Part shown: positions 9,177 to 26,862 of the stretch, piece after piece
Position numbering within the stretch: position 1 is the stretch's first letter
Layout: each line of letters starts with the position of its first letter
IMG/VR virus record: IMGVR_UViG_3300045284_000093
Coordinates: 1 to 42,974 of that record
Reading direction: 5' to 3' (one strand)
Length of the DNA stretch: 42,974 bases
Source of the DNA: a virus
The notes under the pieces: generated by a model
Database searches by the model: none
Seen by the model: only the letters and a program-made list of their open reading frames with translations
Told to the model about the DNA's origin: nothing
Translations under genes and position numbers: made by a program

Positions 9177-10370
9177 ATGGCGCGACAACTGAACCGGGGT
9201 GAAGTGCGCCAGCTTGCGGCAAGCAAGGGCATACCACCCGAGTTTGCGCTGGCCATCTGGGGGCAGGAGTCGTCGGGCGGCAAGAACACCAAGACGTCGG
9301 CTACAGGTGCGCGTGGTGCATTCCAGATGGAACCGCCGACGTTCCAGCAGTACAACGAGAATCCCAACGGGGATATTAACGATCCCACCGACAACGCCGT
9401 TGCAGCGATGAACTACATGCACGATCTGCTGAATCGCTACGGCGGCGACTACAACTTGGCGGGACAGGCGTACTACGGCGGGCGTCCGGTCGGCTATCTG
9501 TACAAGGGCATACCCAAGAAGGATGTCCGTAGCACTGGCGTGCCCGGCTCGCCGCTGATTTCGGAATATGGCGCGAGCATTGCGTCGAAAGCAAATACGA
9601 TTCGCGCGCAGTTGGATGCTGAAGGCGCACCGACGCAGTTGGCTAGTGGTTCGTCGTCGATGGTGCCGACGAATTACGCGCCGTCGAAAGCTGCCAACAA
9701 GCCGCTGCAGGATCTGACGCAGTTGCCGATGTATGGTGGCGGGCAGCAGCAGATGCCGGATACATCGGGGATGCCGTTGCCGCAGATGGCGTATGGCGCG
9801 AATCCTACGCCGCTGCAGATGGGTATGATGGCTTACAACAGTCCGCAGCAACGGATGACCGATGCGTCAGGATTGCCGTTGCCGCAAATGTCCGGTTATT
9901 CGCCGTCCCAGATTGCCATGACTCCCGGTGGGCCGCAGGGTCCGTCGGATCAAGTCGAACGCATGATGGCGCAGTTGGGGATCGGGCCATCGCAAACGAC
10001 CCCGACGGAACCGTTGCCGCAGTATGCAGGGCCGACGCAGGGTACGCCCGATCTGTCGCAGTTGGCGTCGCTGGCAGCAGGTGATGCGTACCGGACGCCG
10101 ATTCCTTATCCGCAGTTCGCGCAGACTGGGGGAACGCCGACGCTGGAGCAGATCGCGGCAACACCCCCGGATACGTCCAGTACACAGCGATCACCGACGC
10201 AGGTTATGCTGGCCAGAATGTATGGTGCGACTGACCCCGTAACGGGTCTGCCGATGGACGTGGCGATGGGTTTACGCGATTCGAGTGGCACGGGTATCGA
10301 GGACGCGAACACCCACCAATATTTGCAGAAGTTGGTCGATTCCACACTTAACGGGATGAATTTTGGCTGA
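9177..10370 (+). CDS. Virion-associated lytic transglycosylase (SLT-like domain)
   Basis: Residues 1-115 form a soluble lytic transglycosylase-like domain: a helical start, the motif ALAIWGQESSGG with catalytic Glu31, GARGAFQM (residues 44-51), and GQAYYGG (residues 96-102). Such domains cut peptidoglycan glycan strands so the DNA and internal proteins can cross the cell wall. The rest to residue 397 is low complexity, with LPMYGGGQQQMPD and two further SG-L/M-PLPQM repeats. No signal peptide, which fits packaging in the particle rather than secretion. The end overlaps the giant gene by eight bases. Confidence 0.8.
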   Translation: MARQLNRGEVRQLAASKGIPPEFALAIWGQESSGGKNTKTSATGARGAFQMEPPTFQQYNENPNGDINDPTDNAVAAMNYMHDLLNRYGGDYNLAGQAYYGGRPVGYLYKGIPKKDVRSTGVPGSPLISEYGASIASKANTIRAQLDAEGAPTQLASGSSSMVPTNYAPSKAANKPLQDLTQLPMYGGGQQQMPDTSGMPLPQMAYGANPTPLQMGMMAYNSPQQRMTDASGLPLPQMSGYSPSQIAMTPGGPQGPSDQVERMMAQLGIGPSQTTPTEPLPQYAGPTQGTPDLSQLASLAAGDAYRTPIPYPQFAQTGGTPTLEQIAATPPDTSSTQRSPTQVMLARMYGATDPVTGLPMDVAMGLRDSSGTGIEDANTHQYLQKLVDSTLNGMNFG

Positions 10371-13300
10371 CGACTACGGCGCTGCGCTGGCGCTTCCCCC
10401 AGCATCCCCTTATGGCGCTGCGCTGCCCGTAGCGTCCCCCTACGGCACGGATGCGACCGCTCCGTTTGGCGGCATGCCGATGAGCGACATGATCGCTCTT
10501 GCGCAGCAGTATCAGCAGGCACAGCAGCAGCCAGCACCGGAACCGCCGCTGGATACGCGCGTACCGACGGATCAGTTTGTCGACTTGCCGACGTTCCAGC
10601 AGCAGATCGCGCCGAATATGTCGGCGGGCGATGCGTACGACATGTACCGGGACGTCATTCTGCCGAAGCAGCTTGCCGACATGGGCATGCCGCCTGCGAA
10701 CGTCAAGCAGTCGGTGGCGAACTTCGTAGCGAGTTCTCCGCGTCCGGTGGAGCGTGGGGTGTTAGGCGAGCTTGGCAATACGCTGATGTCAGGCTGGGAT
10801 CTCGCCGCACAGGATACGAAGGGAGTGGCGGAAAGGTATCTGCCGGATTGGCTGGTGCAGGGAATCGAGGACACCGGCAAGAAGCTGGGGATGGGGAACG
10901 TCGAGGATATTTCGAAACAGCGTTTGCAGGATATGACGCCGGAAATGAAGGCGGCGTTGGCGAAGGAATGGGTTCACGAAGATGCGCAGGGCAACAAGTC
11001 TATGGGTCCTGCGTTTGGCGATTGGCGTTCGTATGTGGGGGGTGCGTTGCAATCGCTGCCCGAGCAGGCAGTCGGTTACGCAGGCGGGCGTGTTGCTTCC
11101 GCTGCGGGCGCGGCGCTTGGATTAGCTGGAAAGGCGGCGAAGGCGCTGACGTGGTTTGGCGGCAGCACGCCAGAAGGTTTGCTGGCGGGCGAGCAGTCGT
11201 CGCGTGAAGTCACTGACTATGTGATGAACGCGCCGCAATCCGTCATGGACGGGTCGAAGGTGTATCAGGATTTGCGCGCTAGTGGCAAGACGGATCAGGA
11301 AGCGCGCAAGCAGATTGCCAGCGACCGCGCGACGCAGGCGTACATCAATGTCGCGGCCAGCACGATTGCGCTGGGTGGACACGGCGACGTCGTGCTGGAT
11401 AGCGTCATCAAAGGTGAAACCAAGGGCATCATCAAGCGGGGCATCAAGGCGGGAACCGGCGAAGCTATCGAGGAATTTCCGCAGGGTTATTCCCAGCAGG
11501 TGTTCGAGAACATCGCCAAGCAGGCGGTCGATCCGACCATTCCCACGACGCAGGGCGCGCTGAATCAGGGTGTGGGCGGCGCGGTGCTGGGCTTTGCGCA
11601 GGGCGGTGGGATGGGGGCGGCGTTCGGTCACAACCCGCTGGAACAGGGTAAGCCCGCCGAAACGCCCGCTGTGACGCCGGATGTACCGATCACGCCCGAA
11701 GGGCAACTTGCGGTGAACACGGCAGCGGCGATCGCTGCCCGGCAGGCCGCCATTCCCGCCAACGAATCGACGCCTGAAGAAGATCGCACGATCCTGCGTG
11801 ACACGCTGGTCAATGCAGGTGTGCGCGCGGCGCTGCAGACGACCGGTGTGACGGTCAAGGAGAACCAGTACCAAAAGGAACTGGATCCGATCGATCAGGT
11901 CGCCGATCCGAAGGATGCACCGGCAGCGATCCGGCAGGCGATTGACAGTTTGCAGGGGCGCACTGGTAAGCAGGCCGAAGCTACGGTCAGCGCATTGCAG
12001 GACATCCACGACCAACTCGTCGCCCAGCAGACACTGGAACAGACGCAGGGGGCGCTGGCGGGTACACCGACGGCAACTACGCCACGGGTGCAGGGTGAGA
12101 CTCCGGTACAGGACACCATCCGCAACGTCCTCAATATCCGTACCGGGGCAGACCGGCAGGCAGCGAACGATGCGTGGATGGCGCACTTTGCTACGCTCGA
12201 CGCGATCCAGAACGCCACGCAGGCGGCAGCGGCGCATGCGAACATGGAAGCCGAGCGCGCCAGCTTGCTCGATCAGCATGTGCAGCAGCAGACCGCTGCG
12301 GGTGCAACCCCTGCAGCGTCGCTCTCCCCCCGGATCGTCAGCGAGTCGACTAGCCGGGTTGAGAATGCACTGAAGGCACTGCCGCAGCGCAACCAGACGG
12401 CGATCCGCCAGCGCGCCAATCAAATTCTTCAGGACACCGTAAATGCTGCCAATCAACGTGCTAATCAGCGCGGTAATGCAGGCAATCCACGAACACAACT
12501 TGGCGCATCCGGAGGACTTGATCTCGCAGGCGGACGCGCAGGAAGTGGTGGACTCGTTGTTGAAGGGGGCGCAGCAGGATCAGGAGGGGGCGGCGGGTTC
12601 GCCGGACTCGGGGGCGGACGACGTGGCCTTGGCGGGCTTGGCTCCCGGCAGCGCGCCGCCGTCGGCACCGCAGGCCACATCCCCGGTACCGCCACCGGGA
12701 CCGGTGGCACTCTCGCCGACCGGCTGATTGCGCAGGTCGAAGCCGGACAGGCCGATCCGCGTCTGTTGAGTCTGCTGGTCATCGCCGACGAGGAAACGAA
12801 AGCCTTCCTTGCGGAATCCGGTGCAGCCGTTCCAGAAACGCCGCCACCGCGCGTGCCGACGCCACCAGCCCCTACCCCACCCCGGACGCTCAAGCGTGGC
12901 CCTGCGGCGGTAGTGGGCGGTTTCTCGACGGCGAAGGGATCGACGTATCAGGTACACCCTGACGGCACGACGACGCGGGACAAGGCGGCACGTCCAGAGC
13001 ATCCGGGCGAAAAAGAACGTGGGGTGCAGCCACGCTCGCAAGTGACGTTCTACGTCGATCACGATCTGGCGCAGCGTCGCCTGAGTCTGATTCAGGCCAC
13101 CACGCCGCACAAGATCGCGTTGACGGTCAATCCGGACGGCACGCACGCCGGACTCATGTGGACGACCGGCCCACAGGCCGGGAAGATGATCGACAACACC
13201 ATCGTGCCGATCAGCAAGACGCCGCAGGCGGGACTGATCCCGGTCGAAGGCTGGCGCACTGGTATTACCGGTGGTACTGGTACTGAATACGACAACGTGC

Positions 13301-16300
13301 ATTTCGGCAATCCGATCACTACGATCGAAGGACCATCCAATGCCCAATCCGCTAAAACGACCGACGCCGGGACGCCCACTACCACAGGCGCGATCGCGGA
13401 CGCTCAAACCGTCAAGCCGAATCCATCCCCCGCCGACGCTGCGCAAGTCGGCACGCTCAAGCGCGGGCGGGCTGCAGCAACCCCCCTCGCCCCAGCGCCC
13501 CCCGGCAGCATCGGCGCATCGCTACTTTCAAATGCCACCGCAATATCTGAGCGGCTCCGTCGCGGTCGCACAAAAGCTGAAGCAGGACCCACAGGTGTCG
13601 TACGTCCTAGCTCAATTGCGGAAAAGCTTGCATCGGTCGGGCTTGGCCGGGCGGATGCTGGGACCGGACGACGAACAGGCAATCTTCGACGAGGTAAGTC
13701 AAACGCTGATGCAGTCCCCAAGCGTACTCGCCGCACTGCAGCAGATACCACAAGCCTAGCGCAGAAGCAGGACCTGACCGATTCGCTGGTCGCCAAGTAC
13801 GGCTTCTCGCGGGCGCAGGCATGGGGGCTGGTCGAAGCGCAGGGAACCACCGCGCCGGACATCGTGCACAAGGCGGCTGCGGAACTCGCCGCCAAGAAGG
13901 AGACCGTCGACGCGCTGGTGCAGGACCACGGTGTACCACGCGCCGAAGCGTGGAAGCTGGTCGAAGCCGACAGCAACGAATTGTGGCAACCGTCTACCAC
14001 GGTCAGCGACGAGGATCTGCAGAACGTCGGACCGGCTGGCGGCGGCACGTCCACCAACGTCACCGAGGCAGTCAACGCTGGGGATGTGCACGCGACGCTC
14101 GACGCGCTCAAGACGGCGCTGCCGGACGAGTTGCAGCGCGCGGTGGCGGGACGCCTGCAGGACGTGGGTGTGACGGCATCGATCGAAATGGGCGAACTGC
14201 CCGGCAGGATCAAGGGGCAATACTCGCCCAGCACCAACAGCATCACCATCGATCCGGTAAAGGGCGATGACGCTACGGTACTGCACGAAGTCAGCCATGC
14301 GGGCACGCAGGCGGCGCTGCGCAATCCGCAGACGCCCGAGCAGAAGGCCGCTGCCAAGCGGATGAACCAGTTGTTCGAGTATGCGAAGGCGCATCCGAAC
14401 AGCACTGGCATGCAGGATGCGCGGGGGTTCCACAGCGTCGAGGAATTCGTCGCCGAGGCATTCAGCAACAAGGACTTTCAGGATCACCTGCGGGGCATCC
14501 CGCTGCCGGGTGAAAGCACGCACGGTCCGATGAATGCGTTGTCGGCGTTCAAGAAATTCGTGCTGAACCTGCTGGGCGTGCGCAGTGTGCTGTCGGAAAC
14601 GCTGATGACCGGCGAGGATCTGCTGGATTCACGCGTGTTCAGCCTGTCGGCCAATCTGCAGAATGAGGCTGCTGCCGAGAAGAACCAGCAGACCGGGAAG
14701 GCATACGCCGGTACGCCGAGTGATGCGCTGACGGCGATGAACCCGCAGACCGGCGAGCGCACCGCGATCGCCTACCTGAACAAGGATGGGAAAACCTACA
14801 ACTACTACGAAGCGACACACGACGAACCGAAAGGCGTCAAGGGCACGCGCATCGAGAAGTTGACGCGGCAGCAGGTCGAGGATCTGATCAGCGAGAACGG
14901 CCACACGACGATTCCACCGCTGAACGAAGCGCAGCCGCCGACATCCACGCCGCCGAAGGCGACCAAGGATTTCCTGCCGGGGTACGACAACGAAGGCAAT
15001 CTGCAGACCGTCGCCTACGAGCAGGACGACGGCACGTGGAACGTCTACACGTCGACCACCAGCAACGTCACCACCGACCCGAACGCGACCAAAACCAACG
15101 TCCCGAACAAGGCAGCGGTGCAGGCGCAGATGGGCGCGACCGGGCAGCGGGTAGCCCCGGCATCGACGACGGCGCGCACGCAGACTGGTGGGGGTGGCGG
15201 CAGCAACACGGCGAACCAGACCGGCCCGGCGACGCTGACACCGAATGGTCCGGCGAAGGATTTGGTGCTGAAGCGCGGGCGGGTGCCGAAGTGGGTACCG
15301 AAGGTTTTGGGGGGTGGCGCGCAGAGGATCATGCTGCAGAGCTACTTCCAGAATCGCTTCGCGGGGTTTCAGGATTTTGGGCGCATGGTCAAGGAAGTAA
15401 TGGCCGCGCACAACGAACATCTGCCCGACGAACTGAAGATCGACGATCAGGCCATCCTGCGTAATACGCACGCGGCCAACAAGATCGCGGAGCAGGAAAA
15501 GAAGTACGCCGAGCCGATCGCCGAGCAGGGCGCGTCGATGGAGAAGAAGTTTGGTTTGACGCAGGAGGAGATCGACAAGGATGTGACCAATCTGCACTTC
15601 GAGGAGCGCGCGGCGCACAAGCAGCAGATGCTCGATCCCGACACTGACTGGACGACTGGTGAGGCGAAGCGATCCCTCGACAAGCTGAAGTCCGATCAAC
15701 TGGCCGCTAAAACTTCCAACGACAACCTGCGCAAGAATTCACCTGCATATTTCGCCGAAGTGGAAAAGCTCGCCATGCTGTACAAGCAGATGGGCGACGC
15801 GACGCTCGACATGGCGCAGGCGTATCACCTGATGCCGAAGGCGACGGTCGATCGGATCAAGGGCACCTACAAATACTGGGTGCCGATCCAGATCGGTGAA
15901 CGCACCGTCAGCGGCAAGACTGCGACGGGTTCGACGGCGATGGGCACGGTGCCATTCCAGCGCATCCGCGAGAACATGATCCGCACCGTCATGCGCGGCG
16001 AGCAGAACAACATCGCTGGTATTGTCTACCAGCTTGCGTCGAAGATGTTCAACGTTCTTGACGAGAACGGCAAGCGGGTATTCGATTTTTCGACCCCGGC
16101 AAAAACCAAGATCAAGATCGACCCGCGCGACTTCACGCTGGGTTATGGCGTCGACACGGTTAGCCCGCTCAATCCGCGTGCGGTACAGGTGTTTGTCGGT
16201 GATGGCCAGCGGGTGTACATGAGCATCGAGGATGATGCGATCTTCAATTCGCTGAACATCTTCAGCGGGGCGCAGAAGCAGTCTGCCAAGACGGCGGCGA

Positions 16301-17946
16301 TCGGTGCGGTGGCAACAATGTCGCACATCATGGCGCTGGGCAAGACGGCGGCGAACCCCGGCTTCGCGGTGTTCAATCTGTTGCGTGACGTTGCTACCAC
16401 TGCAGTGCAGTTGCCGAAGGAATATTCACGGGCGCGGTTCTTCATGCATCTGGCCTCGCCACAGGTGTGGGGATCGGCGTTTTATAGCGCATTCGCCGAA
16501 GCATTCGGCAAGGAAGCGAAGGGGGTTTACAAGCAGGCGAAGGAAGCCGGTGGGCTGGTGACGCAGCAGGCGTACGCCGGACTGGATCCGATCAACGCTG
16601 CGGTGAACGGAAAGTTTAGCCCGTCGACCAAGGACACGCTGAAGCAGCGCGGCAGGCAGGCGCGCGAAGTGCTGATGGCGTTCTCACAGGCGCTCGAATC
16701 GGGTACCCGGCTCGCCATCTTCAACACGGTGAACGAACATCATCTGGCGCAGGGTATGACGACGCAGGCGGCAGAACATCGCGCGGCGATCGCGGCGAAA
16801 ACCACCACGGTCAACTTCGAAACGCGTGGCACGGTGCCGCTGGGTCCACTGTACCTGTTCGCCAACGCGAAGATTCAGGGGTTGGCAACGTACTACGACA
16901 AGCTGGTCAACGAGAAGAATCCGTACACGCAGGCGGCGACGGTCGGGCTGATGGGATTGGGCCTGATGGCTGCGGCCATCGGCTATCGGGACAGCGACAA
17001 GGATAAAGACGGTAAATCGAGATACGGCAAGATGCAGCAGAACAAGCGCGACTCGATGATCATCTTTCATGAGGGCGCGACGGGGATACCGATTCCGCAG
17101 GAACTGGCCCCGTTCTACGCGATCGGCAACACCATCGGCGACGGCATCTGGGGCGATACGCAGTCGACTCCCGCGCAGATGTGGTCGCGGTTCATGCGGG
17201 TCGTCGCGCAAACGGTGTCGCCGCTCAACACGCCGCAGCAGGACATTACCGGCTACAAGTCGAACCTGTCAGATTACCTGCTGCGTACGATTACGCCGTC
17301 GGTACTATTGCCGGTCTACGATCTCAGCAAGAACGAGAATACCTTCGGCAATAAGATCGTGCAGAACAAGGACAAGCTGCAGGCGGGTGGATCGCCGATG
17401 CGGGAAATGTATTCGAAGAACGAGAATACGTTGGCGGTGAATGCGGCGAAGGCGCTCTATCAGGTAACGGGGATCGACGTGGCACCTGCGCAATTGAAAT
17501 ATCTCGCGGCGGCGTTTGATCCTACGGGGTACACGAACTACTGGTCGGACGTGCTGGGTTCGAACAAGCCGCCGTCGTATCCGGGACAGGTCGACACCCG
17601 TGGTGGATTCGATCTCACGCGCCCGATCGCGAAACGCTTCGATACGACGGCATCGAGTTTCGCCGACGACGATAACTACAATCTCGCCAAGCAGGAAACG
17701 CTCGAAGCGAAATACTACACAACCAACCCGAACGCGCTGCGGCGTGGTACGCCGACGCCTGATACGCAGAAGCTCGCTGCACTGGAGAGAATCTTCGCCG
17801 ACACCGACAAGCAGATCAGCGCGATCTACAAAGACTTCAAGGCACGTCCGCAGGCGACGGATTTGCAGATCAACACGATGAAGCAGCAACTGCAGCAGCA
17901 GGCGCTGCGGCAGTATTACCACATCACTGGGAAAGGTGGTGGATGA
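10363..17946 (+). CDS. Giant polyvalent internal virion protein (2527 aa)
   Basis: Translation can only start at the TTG at 10363 or later, since TGA occurs at 10357; TTG overlaps the previous gene by eight bases. Visible parts are: YGAA repeats at residues 1-30; helical regions to about 690; a Gly-rich linker at 695-790; a basic linker with LKRG motifs at 843, 1032 and 1636; two copies of a helix pair (LVAKYGFSRAQAW, LVQDHGVPRAEAW) near 1136-1215; and a zincin-like HEVSH at 1308-1312. A long helical region follows, with GFAVFNLLRDVATTAVQLP near 2000, resembling the large polyvalent domain LPD38. Such proteins enter the host with the DNA. Peptidase activity is inferred from the motif only. 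Two other-frame genes appear to lie inside. Confidence 0.85.
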   Translation: MADDYGAALALPPASPYGAALPVASPYGTDATAPFGGMPMSDMIALAQQYQQAQQQPAPEPPLDTRVPTDQFVDLPTFQQQIAPNMSAGDAYDMYRDVILPKQLADMGMPPANVKQSVANFVASSPRPVERGVLGELGNTLMSGWDLAAQDTKGVAERYLPDWLVQGIEDTGKKLGMGNVEDISKQRLQDMTPEMKAALAKEWVHEDAQGNKSMGPAFGDWRSYVGGALQSLPEQAVGYAGGRVASAAGAALGLAGKAAKALTWFGGSTPEGLLAGEQSSREVTDYVMNAPQSVMDGSKVYQDLRASGKTDQEARKQIASDRATQAYINVAASTIALGGHGDVVLDSVIKGETKGIIKRGIKAGTGEAIEEFPQGYSQQVFENIAKQAVDPTIPTTQGALNQGVGGAVLGFAQGGGMGAAFGHNPLEQGKPAETPAVTPDVPITPEGQLAVNTAAAIAARQAAIPANESTPEEDRTILRDTLVNAGVRAALQTTGVTVKENQYQKELDPIDQVADPKDAPAAIRQAIDSLQGRTGKQAEATVSALQDIHDQLVAQQTLEQTQGALAGTPTATTPRVQGETPVQDTIRNVLNIRTGADRQAANDAWMAHFATLDAIQNATQAAAAHANMEAERASLLDQHVQQQTAAGATPAASLSPRIVSESTSRVENALKALPQRNQTAIRQRANQILQDTVNAANQRANQRGNAGNPRTQLGASGGLDLAGGRAGSGGLVVEGGAAGSGGGGGFAGLGGGRRGLGGLGSRQRAAVGTAGHIPGTATGTGGTLADRLIAQVEAGQADPRLLSLLVIADEETKAFLAESGAAVPETPPPRVPTPPAPTPPRTLKRGPAAVVGGFSTAKGSTYQVHPDGTTTRDKAARPEHPGEKERGVQPRSQVTFYVDHDLAQRRLSLIQATTPHKIALTVNPDGTHAGLMWTTGPQAGKMIDNTIVPISKTPQAGLIPVEGWRTGITGGTGTEYDNVHFGNPITTIEGPSNAQSAKTTDAGTPTTTGAIADAQTVKPNPSPADAAQVGTLKRGRAAATPLAPAPPGSIGASLLSNATAISERLRRGRTKAEAGPTGVVRPSSIAEKLASVGLGRADAGTGRRTGNLRRGKSNADAVPKRTRRTAADTTSLAQKQDLTDSLVAKYGFSRAQAWGLVEAQGTTAPDIVHKAAAELAAKKETVDALVQDHGVPRAEAWKLVEADSNELWQPSTTVSDEDLQNVGPAGGGTSTNVTEAVNAGDVHATLDALKTALPDELQRAVAGRLQDVGVTASIEMGELPGRIKGQYSPSTNSITIDPVKGDDATVLHEVSHAGTQAALRNPQTPEQKAAAKRMNQLFEYAKAHPNSTGMQDARGFHSVEEFVAEAFSNKDFQDHLRGIPLPGESTHGPMNALSAFKKFVLNLLGVRSVLSETLMTGEDLLDSRVFSLSANLQNEAAAEKNQQTGKAYAGTPSDALTAMNPQTGERTAIAYLNKDGKTYNYYEATHDEPKGVKGTRIEKLTRQQVEDLISENGHTTIPPLNEAQPPTSTPPKATKDFLPGYDNEGNLQTVAYEQDDGTWNVYTSTTSNVTTDPNATKTNVPNKAAVQAQMGATGQRVAPASTTARTQTGGGGGSNTANQTGPATLTPNGPAKDLVLKRGRVPKWVPKVLGGGAQRIMLQSYFQNRFAGFQDFGRMVKEVMAAHNEHLPDELKIDDQAILRNTHAANKIAEQEKKYAEPIAEQGASMEKKFGLTQEEIDKDVTNLHFEERAAHKQQMLDPDTDWTTGEAKRSLDKLKSDQLAAKTSNDNLRKNSPAYFAEVEKLAMLYKQMGDATLDMAQAYHLMPKATVDRIKGTYKYWVPIQIGERTVSGKTATGSTAMGTVPFQRIRENMIRTVMRGEQNNIAGIVYQLASKMFNVLDENGKRVFDFSTPAKTKIKIDPRDFTLGYGVDTVSPLNPRAVQVFVGDGQRVYMSIEDDAIFNSLNIFSGAQKQSAKTAAIGAVATMSHIMALGKTAANPGFAVFNLLRDVATTAVQLPKEYSRARFFMHLASPQVWGSAFYSAFAEAFGKEAKGVYKQAKEAGGLVTQQAYAGLDPINAAVNGKFSPSTKDTLKQRGRQAREVLMAFSQALESGTRLAIFNTVNEHHLAQGMTTQAAEHRAAIAAKTTTVNFETRGTVPLGPLYLFANAKIQGLATYYDKLVNEKNPYTQAATVGLMGLGLMAAAIGYRDSDKDKDGKSRYGKMQQNKRDSMIIFHEGATGIPIPQELAPFYAIGNTIGDGIWGDTQSTPAQMWSRFMRVVAQTVSPLNTPQQDITGYKSNLSDYLLRTITPSVLLPVYDLSKNENTFGNKIVQNKDKLQAGGSPMREMYSKNENTLAVNAAKALYQVTGIDVAPAQLKYLAAAFDPTGYTNYWSDVLGSNKPPSYPGQVDTRGGFDLTRPIAKRFDTTASSFADDDNYNLAKQETLEAKYYTTNPNALRRGTPTPDTQKLAALERIFADTDKQISAIYKDFKARPQATDLQINTMKQQLQQQALRQYYHITGKGGG
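12443..12727 (+). CDS. Possible nested gene in the +1 frame inside the giant gene (94 aa)
   Basis: An ATG at 12443, preceded by AGGA eight bases upstream, opens a 94-residue frame fully inside the giant gene but in another frame. The first half reads as a plausible protein, with helix-like LPINVLISAVMQAIHEHNL and DAQEVVDSLLKGAQ, then an acidic and Pro-rich tail. Over the same bases the main frame gives a monotonous Gly/Ala/Arg linker, as expected if constraint comes from the nested frame. It lies in the same frame as the second nested gene. A chance open frame in GC-rich DNA is the alternative. Confidence 0.4.
   Translation: MLPINVLISAVMQAIHEHNLAHPEDLISQADAQEVVDSLLKGAQQDQEGAAGSPDSGADDVALAGLAPGSAPPSAPQATSPVPPPGPVALSPTG
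13340..13759 (+). CDS. Probable nested gene in the +1 frame inside the giant gene (139 aa)
   Basis: The ATG at 13340 has an excellent ribosome binding site (AAGGA, seven-base spacer). The first 60 residues are basic and Pro-rich. The last 75 look like an ordinary folded helical domain: QYLSGSVAVAQKLKQDPQ, VSYVLAQLRKSLHRSGL, LGPDDEQAIFDEVSQTL and SPSVLAALQQIPQA. The overlapping main frame (residues 993-1132 of the giant protein) is a low-complexity Ala/Thr/Arg linker. This contrast and the binding site favour real overprinting. No family recognised. Confidence 0.5.
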   Translation: MPNPLKRPTPGRPLPQARSRTLKPSSRIHPPPTLRKSARSSAGGLQQPPSPQRPPAASAHRYFQMPPQYLSGSVAVAQKLKQDPQVSYVLAQLRKSLHRSGLAGRMLGPDDEQAIFDEVSQTLMQSPSVLAALQQIPQA

Positions 17947-26262: not shown

Positions 26263-26276
26263 GCTGGCTCCTCACA

Positions 26277-26305
26277 CCCCGAAGTGACAGCGTGTCACTT
26301 CGGGG
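26277..26305. repeat. Dispersed palindrome, copy a (longest)
   Basis: A perfect 13-base arm (CCCCGAAGTGACA) and its complement flank a GCG loop. It lies between the stop of the Pro/Gly-rich gene and the ribosome site of the 26262 gene. No T-run follows, so it is not a usual terminator. It shares its core with five other copies in the right arm. Confidence 0.85.
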
Positions 26306-26315
26306 ATTCTCCTCC

Positions 26316-26846
26316 TTAGACGCCCGGATTTTCCGGCGAAGATTTCGGTTGCGCACCCGGCAGTGTGTTGTCCGGTCGTGTTGGCTGCCCCGGAGGAAGC
26401 GGCTGGCCGCTGCCGTGCGGCGGTGGTACAGGCTGTCCCGTGATGTGCCCCGGCTGTCCCGGGAGGGTATTGTCCGGTTGGTTCGCGATGTGCATGATCA
26501 GCCAGCCGAAGCGCGGGGACCAGACCGGCAGGGTCGAGCCGCCCCCACCACCCGGAAGGCCCGCATCGGGATGTCCCGGTGCGACAGGAAAGCCACCACT
26601 CGGATGCCCCGGCTGAACTGGCAGTCCGGCGTCGGGGTGGCCGTAGCCGGGTAGCCCTTGGTCGGGGCGATTGGGACGGCCTTGACCGTAGCCGGGATCG
26701 ACTGGCCCCCATGCCGGGTGGCCGTAGCCCGGATCCGTGGGACGCGGGGGCTGCGGCAAGCTGTTGTCCGGACGTCCGCCTTGTCCCGGCAGTCCTTGAT
26801 CGGCGTGACCGGAGATCGGATACACCATTGCGAGGAAAGGTTGCAT
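26316..26846 (-). CDS. Pro/Gly-rich repeat protein of unknown function (176 aa)
   Basis: The ATG at 26846 is chosen because AGGAG sits seven bases upstream; an ATG six bases earlier is too close. After MQPFLAMVYPIS, nearly the whole protein is made of short repeats: three PDN(S/T)LP units, GYGHPDAGLP, PGHPSGGFP, PGHPDAGLP and others. One ordinary segment, WSPRFGWLIMHIANQPDN, interrupts them around residue 110. Similar PDxGLPG-repeat proteins occur in other podoviruses near the lysis and lipoprotein genes, without assigned function. Likely extended and disordered. Confidence 0.6.
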   Translation of the reverse strand: MQPFLAMVYPISGHADQGLPGQGGRPDNSLPQPPRPTDPGYGHPAWGPVDPGYGQGRPNRPDQGLPGYGHPDAGLPVQPGHPSGGFPVAPGHPDAGLPGGGGGSTLPVWSPRFGWLIMHIANQPDNTLPGQPGHITGQPVPPPHGSGQPLPPGQPTRPDNTLPGAQPKSSPENPGV

Positions 26847-26862
26847 GTGCATTTCTCCTGAG

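Follow-up and report, generated by a model that had tools for sequence, protein, structure and literature searches.

Within the longest gene of an uncultured phage, a 2527-codon open reading frame (ORF) for a polyvalent protein, positions 13340-13759 very likely hold a real protein-coding gene, read out of frame in a stretch that serves the large protein as a linker. We refer to this nested frame as B; a further ORF in the same shifted frame, A (12443-12727), is very probably a second such gene. A related phage keeps both of them, start and frame unchanged, although the silent sites of the surrounding gene differ by ~37% between the two phages. Annotation pipelines tend to drop nested out-of-frame genes, and ordinary gene finders overlook the proteins that they encode; to our knowledge, conserved out-of-frame genes that lie entirely within the large phage genes for structure or ejection have seldom been documented.

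The phage and its polyvalent gene

The window analysed here is the whole of IMG/VR record IMGVR_UViG_3300045284_000093, the 42,974-base record of an uncultured, podovirus-like phage. Structural genes lie on the + strand upstream of the 2527-codon ORF (phrog_399, phrog_437, the 'internal virion protein' phrog_511 and a transglycosylase-like protein), and replication genes lie downstream of it on the - strand. Judged by phrog_511, the nearest named phages include Vibrio phage douglas 12A4, Serratia phage Parlo, Erwinia phage PEp14 and Burkholderia phage BcepIL02, all at ~28-34% identity. The product of the 2527-codon ORF (hereafter the host gene; Table 1) matches LPD38 (PF18857) at 66.7 bits, against a curated cut-off of 27 (E = 3.6e-18), as well as the DarB-like family phrog_10089 (E = 1.2e-42), and carries an HExxH motif that reads HEVSHAG in the translation; we therefore class it as a polyvalent protein. 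Its membership of the LPD38 and DarB-like families suggests that it is a virion protein, packaged and ejected.

Table 1. Positions of the host gene, the nested frames and associated features, in nucleotides of the window unless residues are indicated.
Feature	Position	Strand	Description
Host gene, longest of the phage	10363-17946	+	2527-aa polyvalent protein; LPD38 and DarB-like matches, HExxH peptidase-like motif
Nested ORF A, very probably a gene	12443-12727	+	94 aa, in the shifted frame that B also uses; predicted N-terminal helical hairpin; kept in L003
Nested frame B, very likely a gene	13340-13759	+	139 aa, ATG to TAG; shifted frame, "ss13" in OLGenie
Putative ribosome site of B	13328-13332	+	AAGGA, 7-nt gap to ATG
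C-terminal helical domain of B (predicted)	13526-13756	+	Frozen main-frame silent sites, dSN 0.015; AlphaFold2 helices
L[KR]RG copies in the host protein	residues 843, 1032, 1065, 1108, 1636, 2459		1032, 1065 and 1108 inside the B overlap
Main-frame LKRG, residue 1032	13456-13467	+	Inside the B overlap

Features of nested frame B

B lies wholly within the host ORF, its third codon position falling on the first position of the main codon. The preliminary description had placed a 139-aa frame here, behind an AAGGA at a seven-base gap, and its coordinates, start, stop and spacing all proved exact. What it called a textbook ribosome site is indeed a good AAGGA at 7 nt, but an unexceptional one: 14% of the ATGs in the window pair equally well with the anti-Shine-Dalgarno sequence, making the strength of this site weak evidence for B. 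ORF length was likewise set aside as evidence, since 27% of synonymously shuffled versions of the main gene have a +1 open stretch no shorter than B; around B, the shifted frame is open for ~173 codons.

The codon usage of B is gene-like, with a score of +0.23 where the shifted frame averages -0.26 (sd 0.16). The codon-usage score of the main frame takes its lowest value in the entire host gene exactly at the B overlap. The main-frame residues concerned (993-1132) consist above all of A, T, G and R and have a pI of 11.7, and the earlier characterization of the host frame as a low-complexity Ala/Thr/Arg linker is a fair one. B itself is basic (pI 11.4), with a helical part and a Pro-rich part. 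In its AlphaFold2 model, helices span residues 71-135 at a pLDDT of ~60-75 and the N-terminal half is disordered, which lends moderate support to the view, also expressed earlier, that the C-terminal domain is normally folded.

Silent sites of the host gene are nearly frozen over the C-terminal domain of B

The comparison of A and B rests on one relative phage, IMG/VR 3300046533_000736 (L001, L003 and others); the large proteins of the two phages are ~80% identical. In L003, the start and length of B are unchanged and its frame contains no stops or breaks; the two B products are 88% identical overall and 95% identical over the last 77 residues. A GAGG lies 6 nt upstream of the L003 start codon, and the stop, TAG in the window, is TGA in L003 by way of two adjacent changes. 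A complete out-of-frame ORF is retained in this one relative.

Main-frame dS against L003 is 0.37 across the host gene. It falls to 0.03, 0.00, 0.03 and 0.06 in four overlapping windows of 40 codons whose first bases lie at 13501-13681 (0.00-0.06 over 13501-13740), and has recovered to 0.42 in the window that begins at 13801. Only 1/61 four-fold sites changed in 13500-13748 (1/56 within 13526-13756), compared with 28% gene-wide. Moreover, B contains a run of 50 four-fold sites with 0 changes, whereas every 50-site run outside the ORF has at least 7, and block permutations reproduced such a zero-change run in just 0-3 of 2000 cases. Among the other full-length genes of the window with an orthologue in L003, the lowest 50-site run has 3 changes and belongs to a very conserved helicase. 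Nearly every base is identical over ~230 nt of the frozen tract. The main-frame synonymous comparison across 13340-13759 that the preliminary description had proposed therefore finds, in this one relative, silent sites frozen over the nested domain.

Several other stretches of the alignment also stood out. Homology between the window and L003 restarts ~11 nt ahead of the start codon of B; the ~150 host-protein codons directly upstream (12798-13328) have no counterpart in L003, which carries a short unrelated linker there instead. Another main-frame synonymous dip (0.07-0.14) occurs at 14941-15060, to which no nested ORF has so far been tied. An 84-codon fragment at 26272-26712, in which 0/19 sites changed, was discarded as probably no gene; it overlaps 26316-26852 in another frame.

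Probable selection on the nested frame

We classed sites by their effect in both frames, using the OLGenie scheme for frame ss13 (PMC7531306). Divergence at sites that are silent in the main frame and replacement in the nested frame (dSN) is 0.015 in the C-terminal domain of B, compared with 0.40 outside A and B, and at sites of the opposite kind (replacement in the main frame, silent in the nested frame) it is 0.089 in this domain and 0.15 outside. Changes are distributed over main codon positions 1:2:3 as 18:6:11 over B and as 297:221:616 elsewhere, a shift towards nested position 3 (Fisher p = 0.002 for main position 1 vs 3, B vs elsewhere). When the low number of changes was taken as given, the nested frame was as open and as similar as observed in 19/3000 simulations; for the C-terminal domain alone, again conditional on few changes, 181/3000 simulations matched B. 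The dN/dS of the nested frame, also proposed earlier as a check, separates B less sharply, with a dNN/dNS of 0.39 that is modestly below the 0.54-0.79 found elsewhere in the gene. These comparisons point to frame-specific purifying selection on B, for which dNN/dNS alone is the weaker indicator.

Alternative explanations

Retention of nearly all bases over ~230 nt would also suit a functional DNA or RNA element, such as a structured RNA or a signal for regulation or packaging, with the open nested frame as its passenger, and the position test on the C-terminal domain alone is based on few changes. We nevertheless consider such an element improbable: the RNA fold over B is less stable than those of shuffled sequences (z +1.27), B has no Rfam match, neither promoters nor terminators exceed the chance level there, the few changes fall mostly at nested position 3, the nested codon usage is gene-like, and the two-base change at the end of B preserves the position of its stop. 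Two antisense frames were also rejected. A codon-aligned one, which would mimic the position pattern, contains stops in both phages, and the single open antisense frame fails to explain the freeze, with 1/58 sites that are silent in both the antisense and the main frame changed.

The least probable of the readings is that recent recombination between lineages, or a locally low mutation rate, produced the low divergence, with no second gene involved. Although the frozen tract is short and has a non-homologous stretch at one border, main-frame replacement changes stand at 0.05-0.06, near the flank level, while silent divergence drops from ~0.4 to 0.02. Recent exchange explains the freeze poorly because main-frame replacement sites still vary and the changes shift to nested position 3; furthermore, the codon-usage evidence owes nothing to L003. 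It is also very improbable that the nested frame is translated without a gene of its own, as a tail of the large protein that ribosomes reach by programmed frameshifting. A and B do share a shifted frame, which is open around B for ~173 codons, but each starts with a conserved ATG behind AGGA, AAGGA or GAGG at 6-8 nt, and a stop stands directly ahead of the ATG of A in the window and ahead of that of B in L003. Moreover, the sequence upstream of 13329 is non-homologous between the phages, and a common shift site upstream of B is therefore unlikely.

A second nested frame

The preliminary description listed a single nested frame and overlooked A. The ATG of A is immediately preceded by a stop in its own frame and has an AGGA 8 nt upstream. 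L003 shares its start and frame at 80% identity, and the first 23 residues are identical, with the DNA changed; over the first 41 codons, dNN is 0.017 vs a dNS of 0.269. The codon score of A tops those of all shifted-frame windows of the host gene, and AlphaFold2, given two sequences, models it as a helical hairpin with a pLDDT of 80-88. The predicted product of A is small, with an acidic pI of 4.1, and it too has a helical part and a Pro-rich part. Conditional on the number of changes, 477/3000 simulations do equally well over its first 50 codons. A is less well supported than B, yet it is very probably another nested gene.

Probable use of the main frame as well

The host protein contains 6 copies of L[KR]RG, against 0.09 expected by shuffling and a maximum of 2 in 5000 shuffles. 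The copies lie mostly between domains, and the three in the B overlap use different codons; 6/6 are kept in L003 and 0 in the distant relative L009. Since the main frame keeps this repeated motif, it is probably also used in the B overlap, where the same bases would encode two working proteins. The motifs themselves suggest processing sites for the embedded HExxH peptidase-like domain, or basic linear motifs. Overprinting, as proposed earlier, is supported by the comparative tests, but the nested frame is not necessarily the newer partner: because the codon usage of B is gene-like and the main frame is least gene-like there, it may be the main frame that is newer or more tolerant.

Distribution of A and B

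Outside the phage pair, no homologues of A or B appeared in sequence, family, structure or fold searches of the collections searched, and neither has a family match in Pfam, PHROG or NCBIfam (A reaches only E = 0.4 against PHROG 32794, which was disregarded). Scans of viral and genome contigs found one phage only that carries the region. Two kin, L011 and L012, have contigs that end short of the host gene, and the ORFs are absent from L009. With no homologue beyond the pair and a distant relative that lacks both ORFs, we propose that A and B arose recently, evolve fast, or occur only in a group that has been sparsely sampled.

A model for nested expression

Most likely, the Shine-Dalgarno/ATG sites of A and B serve for internal initiation on the late mRNA of the structural operon, and both proteins would be made late, together with the large protein. 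Our best guess is that A and B are small accessory proteins that help in virion assembly or ejection, where they might bind to one another or to the large protein. Over B, the main frame would yield a flexible, basic linker that bears L[KR]RG motifs and tolerates double use. A more speculative picture, which we consider rather unlikely, is that the linker of a giant, presumably ejected protein serves as a nursery of out-of-frame genes. Here A and B, stacked in one frame, would possibly be partners, the small genes would have come first with the linker as a read-through by-product, and the L[KR]RG motifs could be cleavage sites of the HExxH domain.

The evolutionary signal is strong and includes two nested ORFs within a single host gene. 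If they are translated, phage proteomes and functional screens that use annotated genes would lack small proteins of this kind, and giant polyvalent genes whose linkers are of low complexity would become obvious search targets.

Comparison with known embedded genes

The embedded genes of two-component spanins, with Rz1 within Rz, were frequently overlooked by gene callers in a survey (PMC6139136). A and B share with Rz1 a small size, a start of their own and a position wholly within a larger phage gene but out of its frame; unlike Rz1, they have no lipoprotein signal (neither contains a Cys that could form an Rz1-like lipobox) and no lysis-gene context, and their host gene encodes a giant polyvalent protein. 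In the ShiLan type of arrangement, an out-of-frame HNH endonuclease lies in a phage methylase gene (PMC11855218). A and B similarly lie in a shifted frame of a phage gene, with the frame of the host gene left open to encode a loop or linker, but they match neither HNH nor any other family and give no sign of homing or of an empty site. Judged by their sequences, they fit neither the Rz1 nor the out-of-frame HNH family.

The host gene belongs with the phage polyvalent, DarB-like LPD38 proteins (PMC5512222; Burkholderia phages BcepIL02 and CSP3); the distant relative L009 is without the nested ORFs. A word search of the main text of PMC5512222 returned no mention of overlapping or alternative-frame genes, and a limited literature search yielded no earlier report of nested genes in this class of host. 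Embedded phage genes are already known as a phenomenon, and A and B add a well-supported further case.
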